Positions 1 through 26,212 of a DNA stretch of 26,707 nucleotides are shown here, piece by piece (within the stretch, counting starts at the first letter, position 1; each line of letters starts with the position of its first letter). Below the pieces are notes generated by a model. That model saw nothing but the letters and a program-made list of their open reading frames with translations, was not told the DNA's origin and did no database searches. The translations under genes were made by a program, and so were the position numbers. The DNA lies in IMG/VR virus record IMGVR_UViG_3300025108_000319, positions 1 to 26,707 of that record; one strand, given 5' to 3'. This DNA is from a virus.

Positions 1-41
1 ACAAAAAAATTGCCCGTGAAGAATTTGGATTTGTAATGTAA
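1..41 (+). CDS. 3' end of an unidentified upstream gene (partial)
   Basis: The frame beginning at base 3 reads KKIAREEFGFVM and then a TAA stop at 39-41, whose last base is the first base of the uvsX ATG. This TAATG coupling is the same type seen at many other junctions here, which supports a real upstream gene. Only 12 residues are visible, so no family can be assigned. In T4-like phages the region before uvsX belongs to the replication cluster. Confidence 0.55.
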   Translation, partial: KKIAREEFGFVM

Positions 42-1048
42 TGGATTTTTTAAAAGAGATTGTAAAAGAGATTGGGGATGAATACACAAAACTCGCATCC
101 GATATTGACGACACTGAAAACTATGTGGACACGGGTTCTTACATCTTTAACGCATTGGTTTCAGGTAGTATATTTGGTGGTGTTTCTGGGAATAAGATTA
201 CTGCCATTGCTGGGGAGTCTTCTACTGGCAAGACTTTCTTTTCTCTCGCTGTCGTCAAAAACTTTCTTGATTCTAATCCTGACGGATATTGCCTTTATTT
301 TGACACCGAGGCAGCAGTTAATAAATCTCTTCTCGAAAGTAGAGGAATTGATCTCTCACGTTTGGTCGTCGTTAATGTAGTAACTGTCGAAGAGTTTCGT
401 CAAAAAGCACTGAAGGCAGTAGACATATACCTAAAAAAATCTGTAGAAGAACGCAGACCCTGTATGTTTGTGTTAGACTCTCTTGGGATGCTTTCCACAG
501 AGAAAGAGATTACTGATACGCTAAACGAAAAACAAGTTCGGGATATGACTAAATCCCAACTTATTAAAGGTGCGTTCAGAATGCTCACACTTAAGTTGGG
601 TCAAGCAAACATTCCAATGATCGTTACTAATCACACTTACGATGTCATCGGTGCATATGTTCCAACCAAAGAGATGGGTGGCGGTTCTGGTCTTAAGTAT
701 GCGGCGTCCACGATTATTCACCTTAGTAAAAAAAAGGAGAAGGATGGAACAGAAGTCATTGGAAATCTTATCAAGGCAAAGACTGCTAAGTCGCGTTTAA
801 GTAAGGAGAACCAAAATGTTACGGTGCGTCTGTATTACGATGAGCGTGGTCTTGATCGATATTATGGTCTTCTTGAACTCGGTGAGATTGGCGGACTTTG
901 GAAAAATGTTGCTGGTAGATATGAAATAGATGGAAAGAAGGTTTATGCGAAAGCAATCCTGAAAGACCCTGACACATACTTCACCCCAGAGGTGATGGAA
1001 AAACTTGACACCATTGCAAAAGAAAACTATTCCTATGGAGCGAATTGA
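41..1048 (+). CDS. uvsX: UvsX, RecA-like recombinase
   Basis: This is the RecA/RAD51-type strand-exchange ATPase of T4-like phages. It forms filaments on ssDNA and drives recombination-dependent replication and repair. Visible motifs are Walker A GESSTGKT (residues 58-65), the catalytic-Glu region YFDTE (E90), Walker B CMFVLDSLG (141-149), and a Gly-rich DNA-binding loop-like stretch KEMGGGSG (210-217) followed by hydrophobic strands. The 335 residues are somewhat shorter than I recall for T4 UvsX and in the range expected for cyanophage homologues. The ATG at 41 overlaps the preceding TAA by one base. The gene overlaps the gp41 helicase gene by 14 bases, so the two are likely translationally coupled. 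Identity is secure from motifs and context. Confidence 0.95.
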   Translation: MDFLKEIVKEIGDEYTKLASDIDDTENYVDTGSYIFNALVSGSIFGGVSGNKITAIAGESSTGKTFFSLAVVKNFLDSNPDGYCLYFDTEAAVNKSLLESRGIDLSRLVVVNVVTVEEFRQKALKAVDIYLKKSVEERRPCMFVLDSLGMLSTEKEITDTLNEKQVRDMTKSQLIKGAFRMLTLKLGQANIPMIVTNHTYDVIGAYVPTKEMGGGSGLKYAASTIIHLSKKKEKDGTEVIGNLIKAKTAKSRLSKENQNVTVRLYYDERGLDRYYGLLELGEIGGLWKNVAGRYEIDGKKVYAKAILKDPDTYFTPEVMEKLDTIAKENYSYGAN

Positions 1049-18295: not shown

Positions 18296-18640
18296 TTATC
18301 TAGTAACTGATTTCTTAACTAAAACAGTCCCCTCTACTGCTCTTGTAGTAGAACCAGTGGGACTGTTTAATATTAGGTCGTAAAAATATTTTCCAGGTTT
18401 TAGATTTGTAGTGTCTGCTGCAAGTAGAGATAGTGTGACTCTACCTGTTTTTCTATCGTTAGCAAATGATATTGTAAAATCGGCAGTCTTTAATGACGAC
18501 TCATATCTCTTCATCTGAGCACATCCATTAAATCCAGTCAAGTCTTTTACACTATTAGACTGAGCATCTTCTAAAACGAACGTTTGATCAAAGTCTGTTC
18601 CAGTGTATAATACTAAATTACTAACGTATGTGACTGCCAT
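18296..18640 (-). CDS. Single-domain BppU-like virion protein
   Basis: The 114-residue protein is essentially one beta-sandwich domain. It has an N-terminal strand pattern YVSNLVLYTGTDF, a LTGFNGCAQMKRYESS turn, and the end LKPGKYFYDLIL...VEGTVLV. The same pattern forms the N-terminus of the minus-strand genes at 23643-24263 and 24268-25644, so the three are paralogues. The layout recalls phage baseplate upper protein N-terminal (BppU_N) domains, which anchor receptor-binding modules. Here nothing follows the domain. It is the last gene of the seven-gene minus-strand run and has its own CATAAATA late promoter. No Shine-Dalgarno is visible and the leader would be very short and A-rich. Confidence 0.78.
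   Translation of the reverse strand: MAVTYVSNLVLYTGTDFDQTFVLEDAQSNSVKDLTGFNGCAQMKRYESSLKTADFTISFANDRKTGRVTLSLLAADTTNLKPGKYFYDLILNSPTGSTTRAVEGTVLVKKSVTR
18322..18368. terminator. Nested inverted repeat at convergent gene ends (possible plus-strand terminator)
   Basis: A perfect ten-base stem, AAACAGTCCC/GGGACTGTTT, encloses an inner six-base stem TCTACT/AGTAGA. It lies 27 bases past the stop of the plus-strand late operon, inside the 3' end of the minus-strand 114-residue gene. The A-rich 5' and T-rich 3' flanks fit an intrinsic terminator for plus-strand transcripts. For minus-strand transcripts it would cut before the stop codon, so a bidirectional role is doubtful. Confidence 0.45.
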
Positions 18641-18655: not shown

Positions 18656-18663
18656 TATTTATG
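18656..18663 (-). promoter_or_regulatory. T4-type late promoter, minus strand (CATAAATA)
   Basis: On the minus strand CATAAATA overlaps the stop codon of the 723-residue gene and ends 15 bases before the ATG of the 114-residue gene. It gives the last gene of the cassette a separate start of transcription. Confidence 0.72.
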
Positions 18664-20830
18664 GTAAATCAACCAAGAACGGAGTAATCCAATCTTCGCT
18701 AGAATTTGTTACTGTAGTAATGGTAATATTTTTTTCATTTAACTTGGCAACAAACGCATCATAAGATGCTCTAACTGTTTGAAGTGTCATACTTCCAGAT
18801 CCATCAATAAACAGAGCGATAGAAGAACCTTCTGGAAGATCATCTATCTTACAAATCTTGTACCAATCAGTTGCATTTGTAGCGGTTCCATTATCTCTAT
18901 TTACAATTACTGGTCCAAAGGTCAGTCCATTTGCATTTGTTCCAGGTATGGTTGATGTATCATTGATAGTGATATCTGCAGATCTTGCAAAAATTGGATT
19001 TGTATAACTACCAGCTCTAAATGCAACATAAAAAGTTTCAAGACCTTCTGATGTAAAGTCTGCATATATTGGAATTGTAAAGGTGCTAGAATTTCCATAT
19101 CCAGAATGATATCCAGTTTGAACTAATGTCTTGAGATCTGCCCAAGGATATGAGAAATCTTCTGGAATATTATTAACGCCAATGGGGAATGTTCCACTAA
19201 CTGCTTCTAGTGTCGCATAAACCGGACCACTTGGCATGAATGTACCAATACCAGTTACTGGATGTCTAGGATTTCCAAATGTAACTGTTAAATCATCACC
19301 TTCATCTACTAAAGTTTTATCCGTTGTTACATCAAATAATAAGTTTACATCTGTTACTTGTAATGTTGCAAATATAATTGCAGGATCATTATTGCTATGA
19401 TATCTTTCGCGAAGTATTATTCTAAAAGTATCATTCTCATCTTCACGGAAGTCATTGGCTGCTCCTATTCTAAATGTAGTTGCAGATCCTACTATGGTAA
19501 TAACATGAGAATTACTGGTATAGAGTATGCCATCTTGTTCGTTATAAAAACCAAAATCTCTAGGATCTTTATCACTATTAGTTCCAGGTTCTTCATCAAA
19601 CCATATTTTAAATTCTGTACCTGTAGCAATATTTGTTGTGTTTAATGTAACTGTTACTAATTCTCCTTCTTCGGCAATATTTGTTACTATACCAGATTGA
19701 TTTGTTAGTATAAAATTATAAGATGGAAAAATATCATTGACAGTAATAGTTGGTGTTGTTGTTACTGCCGCACCAGAAGTAGAACCAGTTCTAATTGTGA
19801 CATTAAAGTTTTCAGTTCCTTCGGATCCAGGAGGTTCTGCTACTAACGCTCGGGAGAATGTAGCAATACCACCAGTTGTGGTACCATTACCAACAATATT
19901 GAATGATCCTGTTAAACTATTATCTGTAAAGTCTGCTGCTACAGTTGTTCCAGAAGTGCTAAAGTACAGCGTAGTTCCAGATGCTATACCTGTTGTATTA
20001 ACAGTAAATTCAACAGACGATCCTTCATTTACAACTGTTGTTGATACTCCAACAGAATACGATGCTACAACATCATTAACTGTAATATCATCAGTTCTTG
20101 TGACAACTCCAGCAGTTGTTGAGTCTGTTAAAATGACAGTACGGAATGTCTCTGGACCTTCCGTTACACCATCCAGTACAATCGTTCTGGTTACTGTTGC
20201 AATACCGCCACTAGAAGTTCCATCACTAACAATGGTAAATGATCCAGAGTTTGGTGATATTAAATCGGATCCAGTGGCACTTGTCCCAGTACTTCCAACT
20301 TCAGTGTTGTAATATAATGTAGTGCCAATATTTACACCTTCAGTTGTGACTACGAAATTGATTGTACCACCTTCATTTACATTTTTTGAAGAAGGTGTTA
20401 CTTCATATATTGGGACACTAGAACTTTGTAGTAATGCACCACCAAGACCTTTAATTGTTAATGCCCTTCCGCGAGCAATAGGTATATTTTGATTTAATGT
20501 ATATGTTGATCCATCTTTAGTGACACCTTGATCTTCACCAACAAATGTAAGTAGTACTGATGTAGATCCAAAACTTACAGTTACTCTGTCGTTTGTTAAT
20601 GCAGGTAAGTAAAATAAGGTTTCATTTGCTTCATCATTAGAAATATCAACAGTTTCAAAGTTGTCAAAAGGTATTACTCTAACGTCATCTGACGTACTAA
20701 TCCCAACTGCCTTTTCAGATAGAATTGCATCAATATAAAATTCAGGTATAGTTGTATTTGCAAACTTGGATTTAAATTTCCTTAACCAAGTTTTAAAACT
20801 AGTTCTTTGTGCTAATGTTGGTTTTGACAT
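18659..20830 (-). CDS. Calx-beta-like repeat adhesin with short vWA-type end domain
   Basis: The 723-residue protein has an N-terminal anchor region (1-135, unassigned). Four beta-sandwich repeats of Calx-beta type follow (about 140-254, 256-367, 368-495 and 496-626). Each has an early NEG/EEG/DEG motif (NVNEGGTINF, VVNEGSSVEF, VDEGDDLTV), a late E-G-x-E-x-F-type motif and an I-x-V-N-D-like terminal strand. The C-terminal part has a vWA-type metal site SIALFIDGSGSM (D676, S678, S680), but only about 45 residues follow, so the vWA domain is much shorter than usual. Such repeats form elongated rods in surface proteins and bind calcium. Three bases separate it from the gene upstream; AGGTGG precedes its ATG. 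It is probably a tail-fibre or whisker-like virion protein. Confidence 0.8.
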   Translation of the reverse strand: MSKPTLAQRTSFKTWLRKFKSKFANTTIPEFYIDAILSEKAVGISTSDDVRVIPFDNFETVDISNDEANETLFYLPALTNDRVTVSFGSTSVLLTFVGEDQGVTKDGSTYTLNQNIPIARGRALTIKGLGGALLQSSSVPIYEVTPSSKNVNEGGTINFVVTTEGVNIGTTLYYNTEVGSTGTSATGSDLISPNSGSFTIVSDGTSSGGIATVTRTIVLDGVTEGPETFRTVILTDSTTAGVVTRTDDITVNDVVASYSVGVSTTVVNEGSSVEFTVNTTGIASGTTLYFSTSGTTVAADFTDNSLTGSFNIVGNGTTTGGIATFSRALVAEPPGSEGTENFNVTIRTGSTSGAAVTTTPTITVNDIFPSYNFILTNQSGIVTNIAEEGELVTVTLNTTNIATGTEFKIWFDEEPGTNSDKDPRDFGFYNEQDGILYTSNSHVITIVGSATTFRIGAANDFREDENDTFRIILRERYHSNNDPAIIFATLQVTDVNLLFDVTTDKTLVDEGDDLTVTFGNPRHPVTGIGTFMPSGPVYATLEAVSGTFPIGVNNIPEDFSYPWADLKTLVQTGYHSGYGNSSTFTIPIYADFTSEGLETFYVAFRAGSYTNPIFARSADITINDTSTIPGTNANGLTFGPVIVNRDNGTATNATDWYKICKIDDLPEGSSIALFIDGSGSMTLQTVRASYDAFVAKLNEKNITITTVTNSSEDWITPFLVDLP

Positions 20831-20833
20831 ATG

Positions 20834-21559
20834 TTACCACCTAATCAATACTGCAAGTGCGACCATTGCAACTAATAAATCTAGAGAGTTATCCAGATAT
20901 GCATTTCCGTCCAATCCTGGATAAAAATCATCATCACCAGTACCAATATAATCATATGCAACTTCAACTTCTACAGTTGGATTCCCTATAACATCTTCCC
21001 ATTGAGCAAAAACGGTTGCTTTTGATGCATTTTCCCACCATTCTTTCCAGGTATCCCAGTTGGCACCTTGACTATTCCAATATGCAGTATCAAAGTTTCC
21101 TTCATCTTGTCCATGCCAGTCCATCAATCTAAATCCTACTACATTTCCATCACCTATTCCAAGCCTACCAAATAGACCAACTTTGCACTGATCATCTCCC
21201 CCATTCGATGAGTCACATTCATCGACACAAGTATCATCAAAATTAATATTATTGTTTATAGAAACTATCCTAGCAAATGGACCTATAGTAGATCCATAGG
21301 ATGCATCATTGAGTCTTTGTTGAGCACCTCTCCAAGGTTTTGGATATGTATCTGATGGACCTATTGGAATATTTCCAGTAGGATCAAATGAAAAAATTAT
21401 TGGTGGGTGTGGTCCTCCCAAAAATCCTTCAGCTAGACGATTTGTAATTGGACCACCTGGTGATAATCCTCCTACTTCACTGTATGATATTTTACCTCTA
21501 CATATACCATCAAACCAAAGTTTAGGATTAAAAGTTTCTAACTCATTAAAAGTTGCCAT
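20834..21559 (-). CDS. Virion-associated hypothetical protein with hydrophobic C-terminus
   Basis: The 241-residue protein starts MATFNELETFNPKLWFDG. It is rich in Gly, Asp, Trp and Asn, has a cysteine group (TCVDECDSSNGGDDQC, about 109-124) and an aromatic region around WNSQGANWDTWKEWWENA. It ends in a hydrophobic segment LLVAMVALAVLIRW that could be a membrane-interacting or packing helix. The stop is three bases from the 723-residue gene, and the start abuts the preceding stop with no gap. It belongs to the minus-strand late cassette; no family is recognised. Confidence 0.75.
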   Translation of the reverse strand: MATFNELETFNPKLWFDGICRGKISYSEVGGLSPGGPITNRLAEGFLGGPHPPIIFSFDPTGNIPIGPSDTYPKPWRGAQQRLNDASYGSTIGPFARIVSINNNINFDDTCVDECDSSNGGDDQCKVGLFGRLGIGDGNVVGFRLMDWHGQDEGNFDTAYWNSQGANWDTWKEWWENASKATVFAQWEDVIGNPTVEVEVAYDYIGTGDDDFYPGLDGNAYLDNSLDLLVAMVALAVLIRW

Positions 21560-22354
21560 TTAAGTAAAATATAAGTGAAGATTATTGCTAGTTCCACCCC
21601 ATCCCACTTGTATTGATGATATTCCGACCACTGCTGTTGTTGGAGTGTTTATACCAACATTTTGATATGCAAATGTATTTGCATCTATAATTTTTATAGG
21701 GACACCATTTGGATAGGTTGATGTTGATATATTGAAAGAAGTTGCTATACCAGTATTTAGATTCATAATAACACCCCAATCATCATATGAGGTGCTTAGT
21801 CCGTGTGCCGGAGTGGTAGTTACGATAGCAACATTGTTTGATCTAGAAACTGATGTTGGCGTACAAACTCCCACAGAATCATTCCAGTTTGACCAAGGTT
21901 TTAAACTATAATCTTTATATCGATCTACACGAAGAGTATTATAAAATATCTGTTTTTTAGCACCACTAGTTCCTATACCAACAGATGAAGTTCTTTTCGA
22001 GTCCCCATCTAAAATAGCAAGTAACATTGCTTTTGTAACACTATCAAGATAGTGGGAAAGTTGCTTCTCTCCAATATCAAGATATCCAACTGTTGAAACA
22101 CCAGTAGGTTCTTCTTCAAAATGAACATAATCATCACCACCAACAAGTTTATTGATAGCGATATTGTAGTTTGCAGTTTTTTTGTTTATCTTACCATAAG
22201 CATTTGCATCCATAACATCATTAAATTGGTGAATGTTATAGATTGCTAAACTAGATCCGATGCTTACACCAACTCCAGGAAGACTATCTTGAATAAAGTT
22301 TGGTGTTGCGCCACCATTATAATGTTTTAGTATTAGTGAGTACGAATTTTTCAT
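21560..22354 (-). CDS. Tail-fibre-type protein with FCCH-like beta domain
   Basis: The first half of this 264-residue protein is mixed helix/coil (KQLSHYLDSVTKAMLLAILDGDS). After NWNDSVGVCTPTSVSRS comes a beta region VAIVTTTPAHGLS ... NGVPIKIIDANTFAYQNVG. This pattern recurs in phage tail and neck proteins and is sometimes called FCCH-like. The identification is from memory of the pattern. The protein ends in hydrophobic beta strands (IQVGWGGTSNNLHLYFT). Its ATG overlaps the upstream stop by one base. It is probably a baseplate/fibre accessory protein; receptor contact is possible but unproven. Confidence 0.75.
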   Translation of the reverse strand: MKNSYSLILKHYNGGATPNFIQDSLPGVGVSIGSSLAIYNIHQFNDVMDANAYGKINKKTANYNIAINKLVGGDDYVHFEEEPTGVSTVGYLDIGEKQLSHYLDSVTKAMLLAILDGDSKRTSSVGIGTSGAKKQIFYNTLRVDRYKDYSLKPWSNWNDSVGVCTPTSVSRSNNVAIVTTTPAHGLSTSYDDWGVIMNLNTGIATSFNISTSTYPNGVPIKIIDANTFAYQNVGINTPTTAVVGISSIQVGWGGTSNNLHLYFT

Positions 22355-23643
22355 TATTCTTGTAAGTTAATATTAATAGGTACTGGTTGCCCTTTGCCTC
22401 CGCCATTTAGAATGTTGTCTGCAACAATATTTCTTCCAATTTCGGTGGGACTAGTCCAGTTTTGAGTATTGTTAATATCTGAAATTTCAGTTACTGGTGG
22501 ATAAATCTGAGATGAAATTGCAGAAGGATCTCCAATTGGGACAGGATTTCCCCATCTATCTTTTTGATGTCCTGCAGATTCAAAATATGTTCCTGGTTTT
22601 TGTCCTGGATTTGGTTGTCCAGTGTAACTTGCATCTGGTCTGTCTGCTTGATTGCCATATACAAAATCAAAGTCATCTAATATTCTTAAAACTTGGTCAC
22701 TAGAAGTTGTAATTACTATTGCTGTTCCGAATATTGTTTGAAGACATAATCTTGGTCCAGGATCTGCATAAAATGATACCTGATGAATTTTATCAGTAGG
22801 TCCAGCACTAAGCCTTGCTTTTCCTTCTGCAGAAAAGTCACTTGTTATATCTGACCTTTTAGTAATACAACCATTCAAAGCACATTGTCTTTGATTATTA
22901 GAAGTACTATCAAAAAATTCTTGTACGTTTTCCCTTAAATTAGGCATTTTATTCTGCATATCATTTTCAGTAAACACCGTATCATTGCAAATAAGATATC
23001 GATCCAATAATTTTGCTTTAACATCTCTAAAACAAGAACTAAACGGTCCAGGAGTGTTTGCTAAACCTATTAATGCATTCTCTCTTAAATTTTTATCATC
23101 ACAAGGTTTTGGTGGATCATTGGGATCATTTGGTGGAGTGTTTGGATCATCTGGATCTAAATCATCAGGATTATCTTGAATACCACCATCCTGCAAAACA
23201 TTATAAGGGTCTCCCAAATCTACTGGAGGATTTTTACCATCATTATTATTTCTATGAGCACACTCCATTGCTTCTTTTGTAAATACACACCCCAAATCTT
23301 TGAATAACTCCAGTCTTTGTCCGATTGACATACCTGGTGAAAGAGGACTATTACCTAATTCAAAATCGGTTCCTGGACCAGAATTACCTGCTCTTTGTTT
23401 TACAATGAATGCTGCATACACTAAACCATTCTCTAGAAGTATTTTTATTGTGCTTCTTCTTCTAAACGGTGCTTTTAAAAGTGGAATTGGCAAGTCCACA
23501 CCACTCGGATCAAAATCATAAATTCTCATCTCACTATCATCATCCCATTCATCATAAATGGTTTGTGCAAGTGCCTTGTACTCAACTACAAAGGCATCAA
23601 CTTCTGTTCCCGAAAACGGTATGTCTGGCCAGTTAAAAGTCAT
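22354..23643 (-). CDS. Large virion-type protein with Asp/Pro linker
   Basis: The 429-residue protein has an N-terminal domain (1-115: NWPDIPFSGTEVDAFVVEY..., MRIYDFDPSGVDLPIPLLKAP) and a short Cys pair (GCVFTKEAMECAH). An Asp/Pro/Asn-rich linker (about 157-180, DDLDPDDPNTPPNDPNDPP) follows. A second domain has several Cys (CALNGCITKRSD), then strands (CLQTIFGTAIVITTSSDQVLRILDDFDFVYG) and a Pro-rich C-terminus. The linker is encoded by imperfect short repeats around 23110-23170. One-base overlaps tie it to both neighbours. No family is recognised; a cassette role in fibre or baseplate assembly is inferred. Confidence 0.75.
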   Translation of the reverse strand: MTFNWPDIPFSGTEVDAFVVEYKALAQTIYDEWDDDSEMRIYDFDPSGVDLPIPLLKAPFRRRSTIKILLENGLVYAAFIVKQRAGNSGPGTDFELGNSPLSPGMSIGQRLELFKDLGCVFTKEAMECAHRNNNDGKNPPVDLGDPYNVLQDGGIQDNPDDLDPDDPNTPPNDPNDPPKPCDDKNLRENALIGLANTPGPFSSCFRDVKAKLLDRYLICNDTVFTENDMQNKMPNLRENVQEFFDSTSNNQRQCALNGCITKRSDITSDFSAEGKARLSAGPTDKIHQVSFYADPGPRLCLQTIFGTAIVITTSSDQVLRILDDFDFVYGNQADRPDASYTGQPNPGQKPGTYFESAGHQKDRWGNPVPIGDPSAISSQIYPPVTEISDINNTQNWTSPTEIGRNIVADNILNGGGKGQPVPININLQE

Positions 23644-24263
23644 TAGTCTCCATCCTCCGAAATTAATCTACCTGTGTTGATAGTAGTTTCATTAGCAAAA
23701 TTTTGTGGCATCCGAATGTCACCGTATTCCTTAGGATCTACCTGATGCCCAAATCCTTCACCTTTTGGCATTAAAAGATAAAAAGTTCTGTTAGGATATG
23801 TAGAACGGAACTGTGCCCACTTCGTAGACATACCTGGTTGTGTTTGACTATCACTTTCATCAATCACAGCAATACAAAGTCTTTGAGCACTACCTGGTAG
23901 TCCATTAGTACTAGTACCAAAACAACCAGTTGAAATACCTTGTTTTACTCTTACAGTCCCTTCAAGAACAATCTCTTTTGCTCCACCTGGTTTTGTAAAA
24001 AGAATATCGTATATGTATCTACCAGGTTTAAGAGCAGAAGTTATATAACTTGGAATGGTTAGTTTGATTTTACCTTTTACTCTATCAGGAAAACCAACAA
24101 TAAAACTAGTAGAAGTTTGACTATCTCTATGTTTTCTTAGTTGTGCTTTAGCAGTATAATTTGCAAGATCAACTACTTTACCACCAACCTCAAACATATC
24201 ATACTCTTGCTCATAGTCGGTATTACTATCTATAGTAATATTATGAACGTATACTGCCGACAT
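23643..24263 (-). CDS. BppU-like domain protein with short vWA-like C-terminal part
   Basis: Residues 1-112 of this 206-residue protein form the same beta domain as in the 114- and 458-residue proteins (VYVHNITIDSNTDYEQEY, LANYTAKAQLRKHRDS, LKPGRYIYDILF, IVLEGTVRVKQG). The C-terminal 90 residues contain RLCIAVIDESDSQTQ, whose D-x-S-x-S resembles a vWA metal site, then helix and strand (TFYLLMPKGEGFGH). This part is too short for a full vWA domain. It starts four bases after the upstream stop, with no clear Shine-Dalgarno. It is probably a virion adhesin or anchoring component. Confidence 0.76.
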   Translation of the reverse strand: MSAVYVHNITIDSNTDYEQEYDMFEVGGKVVDLANYTAKAQLRKHRDSQTSTSFIVGFPDRVKGKIKLTIPSYITSALKPGRYIYDILFTKPGGAKEIVLEGTVRVKQGISTGCFGTSTNGLPGSAQRLCIAVIDESDSQTQPGMSTKWAQFRSTYPNRTFYLLMPKGEGFGHQVDPKEYGDIRMPQNFANETTINTGRLISEDGD

Positions 24264-24267
24264 TTTT

Positions 24268-25644
24268 TTAACTATTTAGAACCAATGCACGGAGAGCATT
24301 ATAATAATTTTCTGGATATGATGGTCCATTGAAAGTATTAGTATCCCCACTTACATATAGAATTCCCTGACCTATTTTTTCATATGTAGTGATAGTATTA
24401 GTGCCATCGACGAAAACTGGTGTTCCACCTGAAAATATTACAGAGGCATTTTGTGATTGCGTTGCCGGAAAATTAGAGTTTATAACACTAGTTTCAGTCG
24501 ATCTTGTAGAACCTTGTATAGGATCATCATCAATTGCTCTGATTTCAGTTCCAAGCAAAGTAAGCATTGCATTGATATTACTTCTATCGGAACAACTCCG
24601 TTCATCAGTACTACCATTCCACCATTCAACATTTAACCATACCACACCCCCTATATTCATATAATCAATAAGTTTTTGTCTTTGTGTAGCATCTTCAAGC
24701 ATATCTCTTGTGGAACTACTACCAATATCAAAAGTGCTACATTGATTGAAGTTAACACCTATGTGAATGACTCCATAAGTACTAATATTGTCAATACTCA
24801 CTCCACTGGCAGCACCACCAGTTTCTTCAATGATACCGACTTCTTCATTATCATAAACAGTAATAATACAAGATGGTGTGATATCTGGTGTTGCTAATAC
24901 ATTGCCTTCTATAACAATACTCTTCTTTCCATATCCAGTACCACCAACATATGTAATACTGACTGCTAAACCAACTGGATTATCATCGAAAGATCCTAGC
25001 CCATTATCCGCATTCTGTTGCGATAGTGCAACAGTATGATCACCTCTATTAAGAGATATGGTTCCTACTCCAACATTTGTTGCATTTAATGCTGCAGCAT
25101 TGAATGATGTTCCATTGATTGTTACAGAACCAACATTATCAGCAGCAGCATCTATTTGATAGACTCCATCATATGGGAAAAATACTTGATATGAGTCTTG
25201 TTTAACACCATAGGGATCACTATCATCACTAAGATTTCCTGATTGTGGAACTCTAGAATACGCATAGGTATTCATAAAAGTAGACCAAGAACTATTTGTA
25301 TATCCTCTATATGATCCATAATTATTTGCTTCTAGTGTTGTCCAAACTGAACTATTTCCAGAAGGATTTGATTCACTAAACATTACATCCCAGACATAGC
25401 GTCCAGGTTTTACTAACCTTGTTTTTTTAGTTGCTAATGATACTCTTATTCTCCCATTTGTTCTGTCTATAAATCCAACATTAAAATCTGCTGTTGCATT
25501 GACACTTTCTGGGTGTTTTCTCATTTGAGATGCTGCCGTATACCCAGACAGATTTAATGGAGTGCCATTAATATTATCCAGATAAAAATCTCTGGAAAAA
25601 TATTCTCCTGTGTTGAGAGTAATATTATTAACGTAGACTGCCAT
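24268..25644 (-). CDS. Modular adhesin: BppU-like domain with inserted lectin-like domain and amidotransferase-like end
   Basis: In this 458-residue protein, residues 1-96 match the shared N-terminal beta domain. The final strand of that domain (KKSIVIEGNVLATP) reappears only at about 240-253. The intervening about 140 residues form another beta domain (SYQVFFPYDGVYQIDAAADN, TISLNRGDHTVALSQQN) resembling carbohydrate-binding/PA14-like folds. The last 200 residues are alpha/beta: GVIHIGVNFNQ, YMNIGGVVWLNVEWW and GQGILYVSGDTNTF, ending YNALRALVLN, a pattern of class I glutamine-amidotransferase-like (ThuA/DUF4350-type) domains without an obvious catalytic Cys triad. It is the first gene of the minus-strand operon, behind GATAAATA at 25664-25671. 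A host-receptor-binding role is inferred. Confidence 0.78.
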   Translation of the reverse strand: MAVYVNNITLNTGEYFSRDFYLDNINGTPLNLSGYTAASQMRKHPESVNATADFNVGFIDRTNGRIRVSLATKKTRLVKPGRYVWDVMFSESNPSGNSSVWTTLEANNYGSYRGYTNSSWSTFMNTYAYSRVPQSGNLSDDSDPYGVKQDSYQVFFPYDGVYQIDAAADNVGSVTINGTSFNAAALNATNVGVGTISLNRGDHTVALSQQNADNGLGSFDDNPVGLAVSITYVGGTGYGKKSIVIEGNVLATPDITPSCIITVYDNEEVGIIEETGGAASGVSIDNISTYGVIHIGVNFNQCSTFDIGSSSTRDMLEDATQRQKLIDYMNIGGVVWLNVEWWNGSTDERSCSDRSNINAMLTLLGTEIRAIDDDPIQGSTRSTETSVINSNFPATQSQNASVIFSGGTPVFVDGTNTITTYEKIGQGILYVSGDTNTFNGPSYPENYYNALRALVLNS

Positions 25645-25765: not shown

Positions 25766-26212
25766 ATGAGTTATGAAAATCCTTGGATATACCTGGAACG
25801 AACTTTTAATACTGATGATGTTGGGGACTACTTTGGTTTTGTTTATAAAATTACCAATCTCTCAAACAAACGACAGTACATTGGGAGAAAGTATTTTTGG
25901 TCATTCAGAACACCACCAGGTAAGAAACGAAAGGTAAAACAAGAATCTGATTGGAAAAAATATTATGGATCTTGTCCCGAATTAAAAGATGATGTAAAAA
26001 AATATGGCAAAGAGATCTTCAGTAGAGAAATACTAAGTTTACATAAAACCAAAGGTACTTGTAACTTTGAAGAAACAAAACAATTGTTTCTTAATAATGT
26101 ATTATCTGAGGCACTTGACGATGGTTCGCCAGTGTATTATAATAGTAATATTCTAGGACGCTATATGCGAAAAGACTATGGTAACTTTAGAATCAACTCT
26201 AAAGAAAATTAA
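25766..26212 (+). CDS. GIY-YIG nuclease-like protein
   Basis: The 148-residue protein has a degenerate GIY-YIG start: FVYKITN (25-31), then QYIGRKYFW (37-45), the conserved Arg/Tyr helix, and a later KEIFSREIL (about 82-90) carrying the Glu of the family. The basic loop FRTPPGKKRKVKQ and DWKKYYGS (62-69) are typical of a small stand-alone phage subgroup often called Seg- or homing-type endonucleases. No DNA-binding NUMOD module follows, so target choice is unclear. It is the first gene of the rightward unit behind an early-type promoter. It may be a free-standing homing endonuclease or a T4 DenA-like host-DNA nuclease; the sequence does not decide. Confidence 0.75.
   Translation: MSYENPWIYLERTFNTDDVGDYFGFVYKITNLSNKRQYIGRKYFWSFRTPPGKKRKVKQESDWKKYYGSCPELKDDVKKYGKEIFSREILSLHKTKGTCNFEETKQLFLNNVLSEALDDGSPVYYNSNILGRYMRKDYGNFRINSKEN

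Follow-up and report, generated by a model that had tools for sequence, protein, structure and literature searches.

The window, by which we mean the whole stretch of DNA analysed, is a 26.7-kb piece of a marine T4-like phage in which uvsX, a DnaB-type helicase gene, a primase gene, nrdA and nrdB are followed by a block of minus-strand genes. The minus-strand gene at 24268..25644 encodes a 458-aa protein consisting of a split LtfC-like anchor, an inserted PA14-like domain and a C-terminal GATase/GIFT-like domain, as delineated from the open reading frame, AlphaFold2 (AF2) modelling and structure matches. The N-terminal part of the anchor (residues 1-91, 25372..25644, closing with strand 81-91) was assigned by its match to PHROG 3304 (E 1e-24), by BLASTP to two shorter paralogues and by the AF2 model, and is followed by the inserted jelly-roll domain (residues 92-239, 24928..25371), by KKSIVIEGNVLAT as the final anchor strand (residues 240-252, 24889..24927) and by a Rossmann-like domain (residues 265-458, 24271..24852), all on the minus strand. 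The paralogues, a 206-aa protein (23643..24263, minus strand) and a 114-aa single-domain protein (18296..18640, minus strand), were assigned by PHROG 3304 and BLASTP and carry the same anchor with a short loop; the 114-aa protein also scored 23.1 bits against Pfam LtfC, below the cut-off of 27. The common N-terminal anchor of the three proteins spans about 105 aa, and its homology is above chance (BLASTP E 9e-22 for the 458-aa against the 206-aa protein and 4e-17 against the 114-aa protein), bearing out the original prediction that three paralogues share an anchor. A search of the whole window record returned exactly these three copies.

The gene for the 458-aa protein belongs to a separate cassette that comes after nrdAB, an arrangement also seen in P-SSM2. 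A simpler form of the same neighbourhood was found in P-SSM2 (a Prochlorococcus phage) and in AG-345-F15, a single-cell virus, neither of which has the 458-aa gene. In several Kyanoviridae, single-domain relatives of the anchor are flanked on one side by neck genes and on the other by a large structural gene of VrlC type or by baseplate genes. A literature search for papers naming the P-SSM2 genes found none. Elsewhere in the window, a 723-aa protein (18659-20830, minus strand) has a vWA-like end with a MIDAS-type motif (LFIDGSGSM) and no Pfam vWA match, a similar end occurring in other structural proteins (phrog_29022), and three cassette genes (20834-23643, minus strand; 241, 264 and 429 aa) are without a PHROG match or a significant Pfam match. 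The plus-strand gene at 25766-26212 is called 'NAD synthetase' in relatives (phrog_447), also matches homing-endonuclease PHROGs and is GIY-YIG-like in look; a phrog_447 gene lies beside the adhesin cassette of AG-345-F15 and a gene with the same label near that of P-SSM2 (PSSM2_218). The 'NAD synthetase' label looks wrong.

The AF2 model of the 458-aa protein was built on a 53-sequence alignment (mean pLDDT 82), from which bare insert fragments were left out since they aligned to the anchor; because the alignment included insertless proteins, the model is not fully independent of the orthologue evidence given below. Strands 81-91 and 241-252 flank the insert in this model, the latter with a pLDDT of about 92, and residues 92-145 are poorly modelled. 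Model residues 2..257 aligned with LtfC of DT57C (8hqz_T 4..140) at VIA Z 12.6, and p132 of T5 (7qg9_L) gave Z 12.5, each over 115 residues with an rmsd of 2.6-2.7. As 115 aligned residues cannot all lie within residues 1-91, residues past the insert are needed for the LtfC match, and in the model they complete the anchor domain. The original prediction had been staked on residues 239-255 completing the N-terminal domain, and the strand at 241-252 and the full-length LtfC alignment agree with it. The anchor HMM re-matches after the insert, weakly (E ~0.04-0.09). The same two structures were matched by sequence with a profile of 44 anchors (8hqz_Q, E 1.1e-6; 7qg9_R, E 2.9e-6), which aligns the last two p132 strands (YDVIIT...FRIMEGKVYIS) with the last two strands of the anchor. 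With profile matches at E 1e-6 and Z 12.6, what had been called an adhesin anchor can now be specified as LtfC/p132-like. Pfam LtfC was matched at E<=0.01 by 15 of the 44 anchors, the window proteins scoring under the Pfam curated cut-off, and no solved-structure sequence was close to the whole 458-aa protein at E<=1.

When viral contigs were searched with the 458-aa protein as query, orthologues were recovered both with and without some 145 extra residues. In the window protein the end of the PGRY strand falls near residue 91 and the start of KKSIVIEGNVLA at residue 240. Four orthologues (L008, L009, L010 and L012) align straight through the site with nothing inserted, only FTDSSN or FTDNTT standing between their PGRY strand and KKSIVIEGNVLA (for example FTDSSN joined to KKSIVIEG). 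Counted from F89 to the KK, the loop has 151 residues in the window protein and 6 in the insertless orthologues, a net gain of 145 that fits the separation of about 140 residues first proposed. Several of these orthologues are close to identical to the window protein on both flanks, and those of L008, L009 and L010 occupy the same gene position, directly upstream of the 206-aa orthologue. Because same-locus orthologues have near-identical flanks and an empty 6-residue loop, the loop insertion that had been read from the window is proved, and because eleven more contigs, of which two are partial and one spans 231 kb, also carry the insert-bearing gene, the insertion is not an assembly artefact. 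No target-site duplication or mobile-element signature was obvious by eye at the insert junctions in the orthologue alignment.

Modelled alone from 24 relatives, the insert is predicted by AF2 to be a jelly roll (pLDDT 80.5, pTM 0.81). Among solved structures it most resembles CBM6, CBM35, CBM36, the DesR PA14 domain and the sugar-binding domains of GH2, each with Z ~7 (DesR PA14, Z 7.1 over 93 residues; CBM6/35/36/16, Z 6.5-7.1); this level is generic for jelly rolls, so the matches indicate a fold class and are not proof of function. Pfam PA14 was matched by 16/24 members of the insert family (best 8.4e-7), the window's own insert being without a match. These structure and family matches agree with the carbohydrate-binding-like beta fold originally assigned to the insert, and its dN/dS of 0.05-0.31 indicates purifying selection. 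Besides the anchor loop, relatives of the insert were found in other settings: following a tail-tube domain plus vWA-like segment in L128 (and in L018, whose upstream part is truncated), N-terminally in proteins with Ig repeats (L129-L135), and as repeats within large structural proteins (L138). Three tail-tube proteins (L128:3990-6014, L174:1679-3310 and L173:2381-4066; phrog_45, E 1e-33 to 1e-35) are fused to vWA-like and GATase-like domains, that of L128 also carrying the same PA14-like domain; adhesin heads thus ride on a second, unrelated anchor, the tail tube, in related marine phages. In L019, L137 and published cyanophages such as NC_015289 and NC_021072, PA14-domain structural proteins bear the label 'major head protein' (phrog_773), probably because an annotation error has been propagated.

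The insert is an exchangeable cassette, with sister genes either empty or filled with a different version. Two insert-bearing genes, L003 and L004, agree at 100% over the initial 240 nt and at 98-100% past the insert, and within the insert their identity is 60-88% per 60-nt block, about one quarter of the sites differing. The L004 insert is about 90% identical to the inserts of a divergent anchor clade, clade II (L121, L122, L126), with which it groups in the insert tree (99/99; p-AU 0.014 for grouping with the others), whereas the anchor tree places L004 in clade I with the window. No second insert copy that could serve as donor was present in the same genome, as judged from the 231-kb relative, which has only one copy. 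The C-terminal domain, which was defined by a structure match (Z 10.5) and a table of mosaic identity, matches the IFT52 N-domain and GH42 domain B at VIA Z ~10.5, and is swapped independently of the insert, the window and L003 being 95-96% identical in anchor and insert and 75% identical in this domain. No cellular relatives of it were found in genome contigs.

Two anchor-profile scans of viral contigs, together with published phages, yielded 241 distinct anchors, of which 231 were continuous, 7 carried this insert family and 3 were cut by a contig end (L011 within the insert). Filled anchors were confined to one gene lineage and always held one domain family; the search for other inserts in the same loop, as the original prediction had proposed, found none besides the PA14-like family among the 241. 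The suggestion of an exposed display site therefore stands in part. The loop tolerates and swaps a domain on near-identical backbones, but the evidence covers one lineage and one domain family and does not extend to a general display platform.

Two alternative histories of the site were weighed. If the first 100 or so residues made up a complete domain with further domains in tandem behind it, the IEGNVLA motif after the insert would be a chance resemblance; the motif is indeed short when judged by sequence alone, and the anchor HMM matches again only weakly past the insert (E 0.04-0.09). The empty-site orthologues, however, align KKSIVIEGNVLATPDI exactly on either side, and the whole-chain match uses 115 residues when only about 91 are available before the insert, so that this tandem-domain reading, already refuted by the orthologues, retains next to no credibility. 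An insert that is ancestral and has repeatedly been lost, the short loops being deletions and not empty sites, is also very improbable, if slightly less so. In the anchor tree the insert occurs in two separate clades nested among insertless relatives, which forces two state changes, and change counts on the tree cannot tell gain from loss; but the 231 continuous anchors among the 241 include those of distant Synechococcus, Pelagibacter, Methylophilales and Streptomyces phages, the loop of T5/DT57C LtfC is also short, and very many losses would be needed as against two gains, or one gain and one transfer.

Taken as a whole, the data are likely to be best explained by an anchor-docked virion adhesin with an exchangeable, probably glycan-binding loop insert. 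In a marine T4-like phage akin to P-SSM2, the 458-aa protein would serve as a virion adhesin, putatively of the tail or the baseplate/neck. The Ig-like sandwich at its N-terminus, a relative of p132/LtfC, probably docks the protein to the virion, by analogy with those proteins; the PA14/CBM-type jelly roll sits in the loop between the last two sandwich strands (F-G in a seven-stranded count), the last strand completes the anchor after the insert, and a second head, the GATase/GIFT-like Rossmann domain, hangs off the C-terminus. By the usual layout of an Ig-like sandwich, the loop head and the C-terminal head may leave the anchor at opposite ends. Through homologous recombination within its conserved flanks (PGRYxWDVMF ... 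KKSIVIEGNVLA), the insert would be added, removed or replaced with the anchor undisturbed. From its fold and family, the likeliest job of the insert is binding to surface glycans, in which case swaps would retune attachment. The insertion itself, closure of the anchor in the model, exchange of the cassette and purifying selection on it have been demonstrated; virion location, exposure, glycan binding and the effect on attachment are features that we infer. A bolder form of the proposal makes the F-G loop a dedicated recombination slot in which glycan-binding cassettes (empty, type A or type B) are swapped independently of the C-terminal head, giving two separately exchangeable receptor-binding modules at opposite ends of the anchor; to this we give somewhat less than even credence.

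The main rival to glycan binding is that the insert is a structural spacer or a protein-protein interface, such as a collar contact or a fibre-docking site, and its exchange ordinary mosaicism of structural genes. The loops of T5 p132 mostly make subunit contacts (PMC10038345), the jelly-roll match of the insert is generic (Z ~7), and related domains occur in large structural proteins, where they are possibly spacers. The two insert types nevertheless occur on backbones identical outside the loop, and near-identical backbones exist that lack an insert, which fits an accessory head better than a needed interface, and the insert family is related to PA14/CBM, so we consider a spacer or interface unlikely as compared with the glycan-binding adhesin head.

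Modular exchange of phage adhesin heads is already known, as are cyanophage structural proteins with PA14-like domains. The open-licence literature yielded no report of an LtfC-type anchor with a domain inserted in its loop, nor of naturally empty or exchanged alleles of one, and a literature search for earlier reports of LtfC in cyanophages likewise found none. For marine T4-like phages, most receptor-binding parts have yet to be identified, and the locus offers natural, near-isogenic genes whose main difference is a single inserted head (empty, type A or type B), which make the role of the insert directly testable and its domain boundary precise and naturally proven. The locus further links a collar fold of T5 type with adhesin display in marine T4-like phages, and reveals a module that moves between unrelated anchors (LtfC-like and tail-tube-like).

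Among known systems, LtfC of DT57C and p132 of T5 (PF23926, PHROG 3304) are like the 458-aa anchor in having an Ig-like sandwich with the same final strands (YDvi...EGkVyi). They form a dodecameric collar round the tail, onto which side tail fibres are grafted (PMC10713586, PMC10038345), with most p132 loops buried in subunit contacts (PMC10038345). Unlike the 458-aa protein, they are single domains with a short loop, lacking both the insert and the C-terminal head, and they belong to siphophage tail tips. The authors of the T5 work link the p132 fold to the N-terminal domain of BppU (PMC10038345). This domain (TP901-1 ORF48, PF10651; also in the 80alpha baseplate) has the same fold as our anchor and is likewise a baseplate anchor, the anchor model matching BppU-type folds at Z 8.7 over 108 residues (4v96_AL) and Z 7.7 (3uh8), with Pfam BppU_N scores of 15.4 bits for the 458-aa protein and 19.5 bits for the L008 orthologue, under the gathering threshold of 23.1; no insert comparable to that of the 458-aa protein was seen in it. 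PA14 genes are mentioned in Synechococcus phages (PMC3037559), and homology with the insert (tblastn E 7e-6 to 2e-4; PHROG 773/32965) extends to the PA14-type domains in structural proteins of marine T4-like phages such as S-SSM5, Syn30 and S-P4. Those domains are tandem or terminal in large proteins, and that of the window lies instead inside the loop of another domain. A further architectural parallel is one of analogy without homology: bovine antibodies with an ultralong CDR-H3 have an Ig fold whose F-G loop bears an independently folded knob, the diversity of the antibodies arising somatically and that of the phage protein by exchange between genomes.
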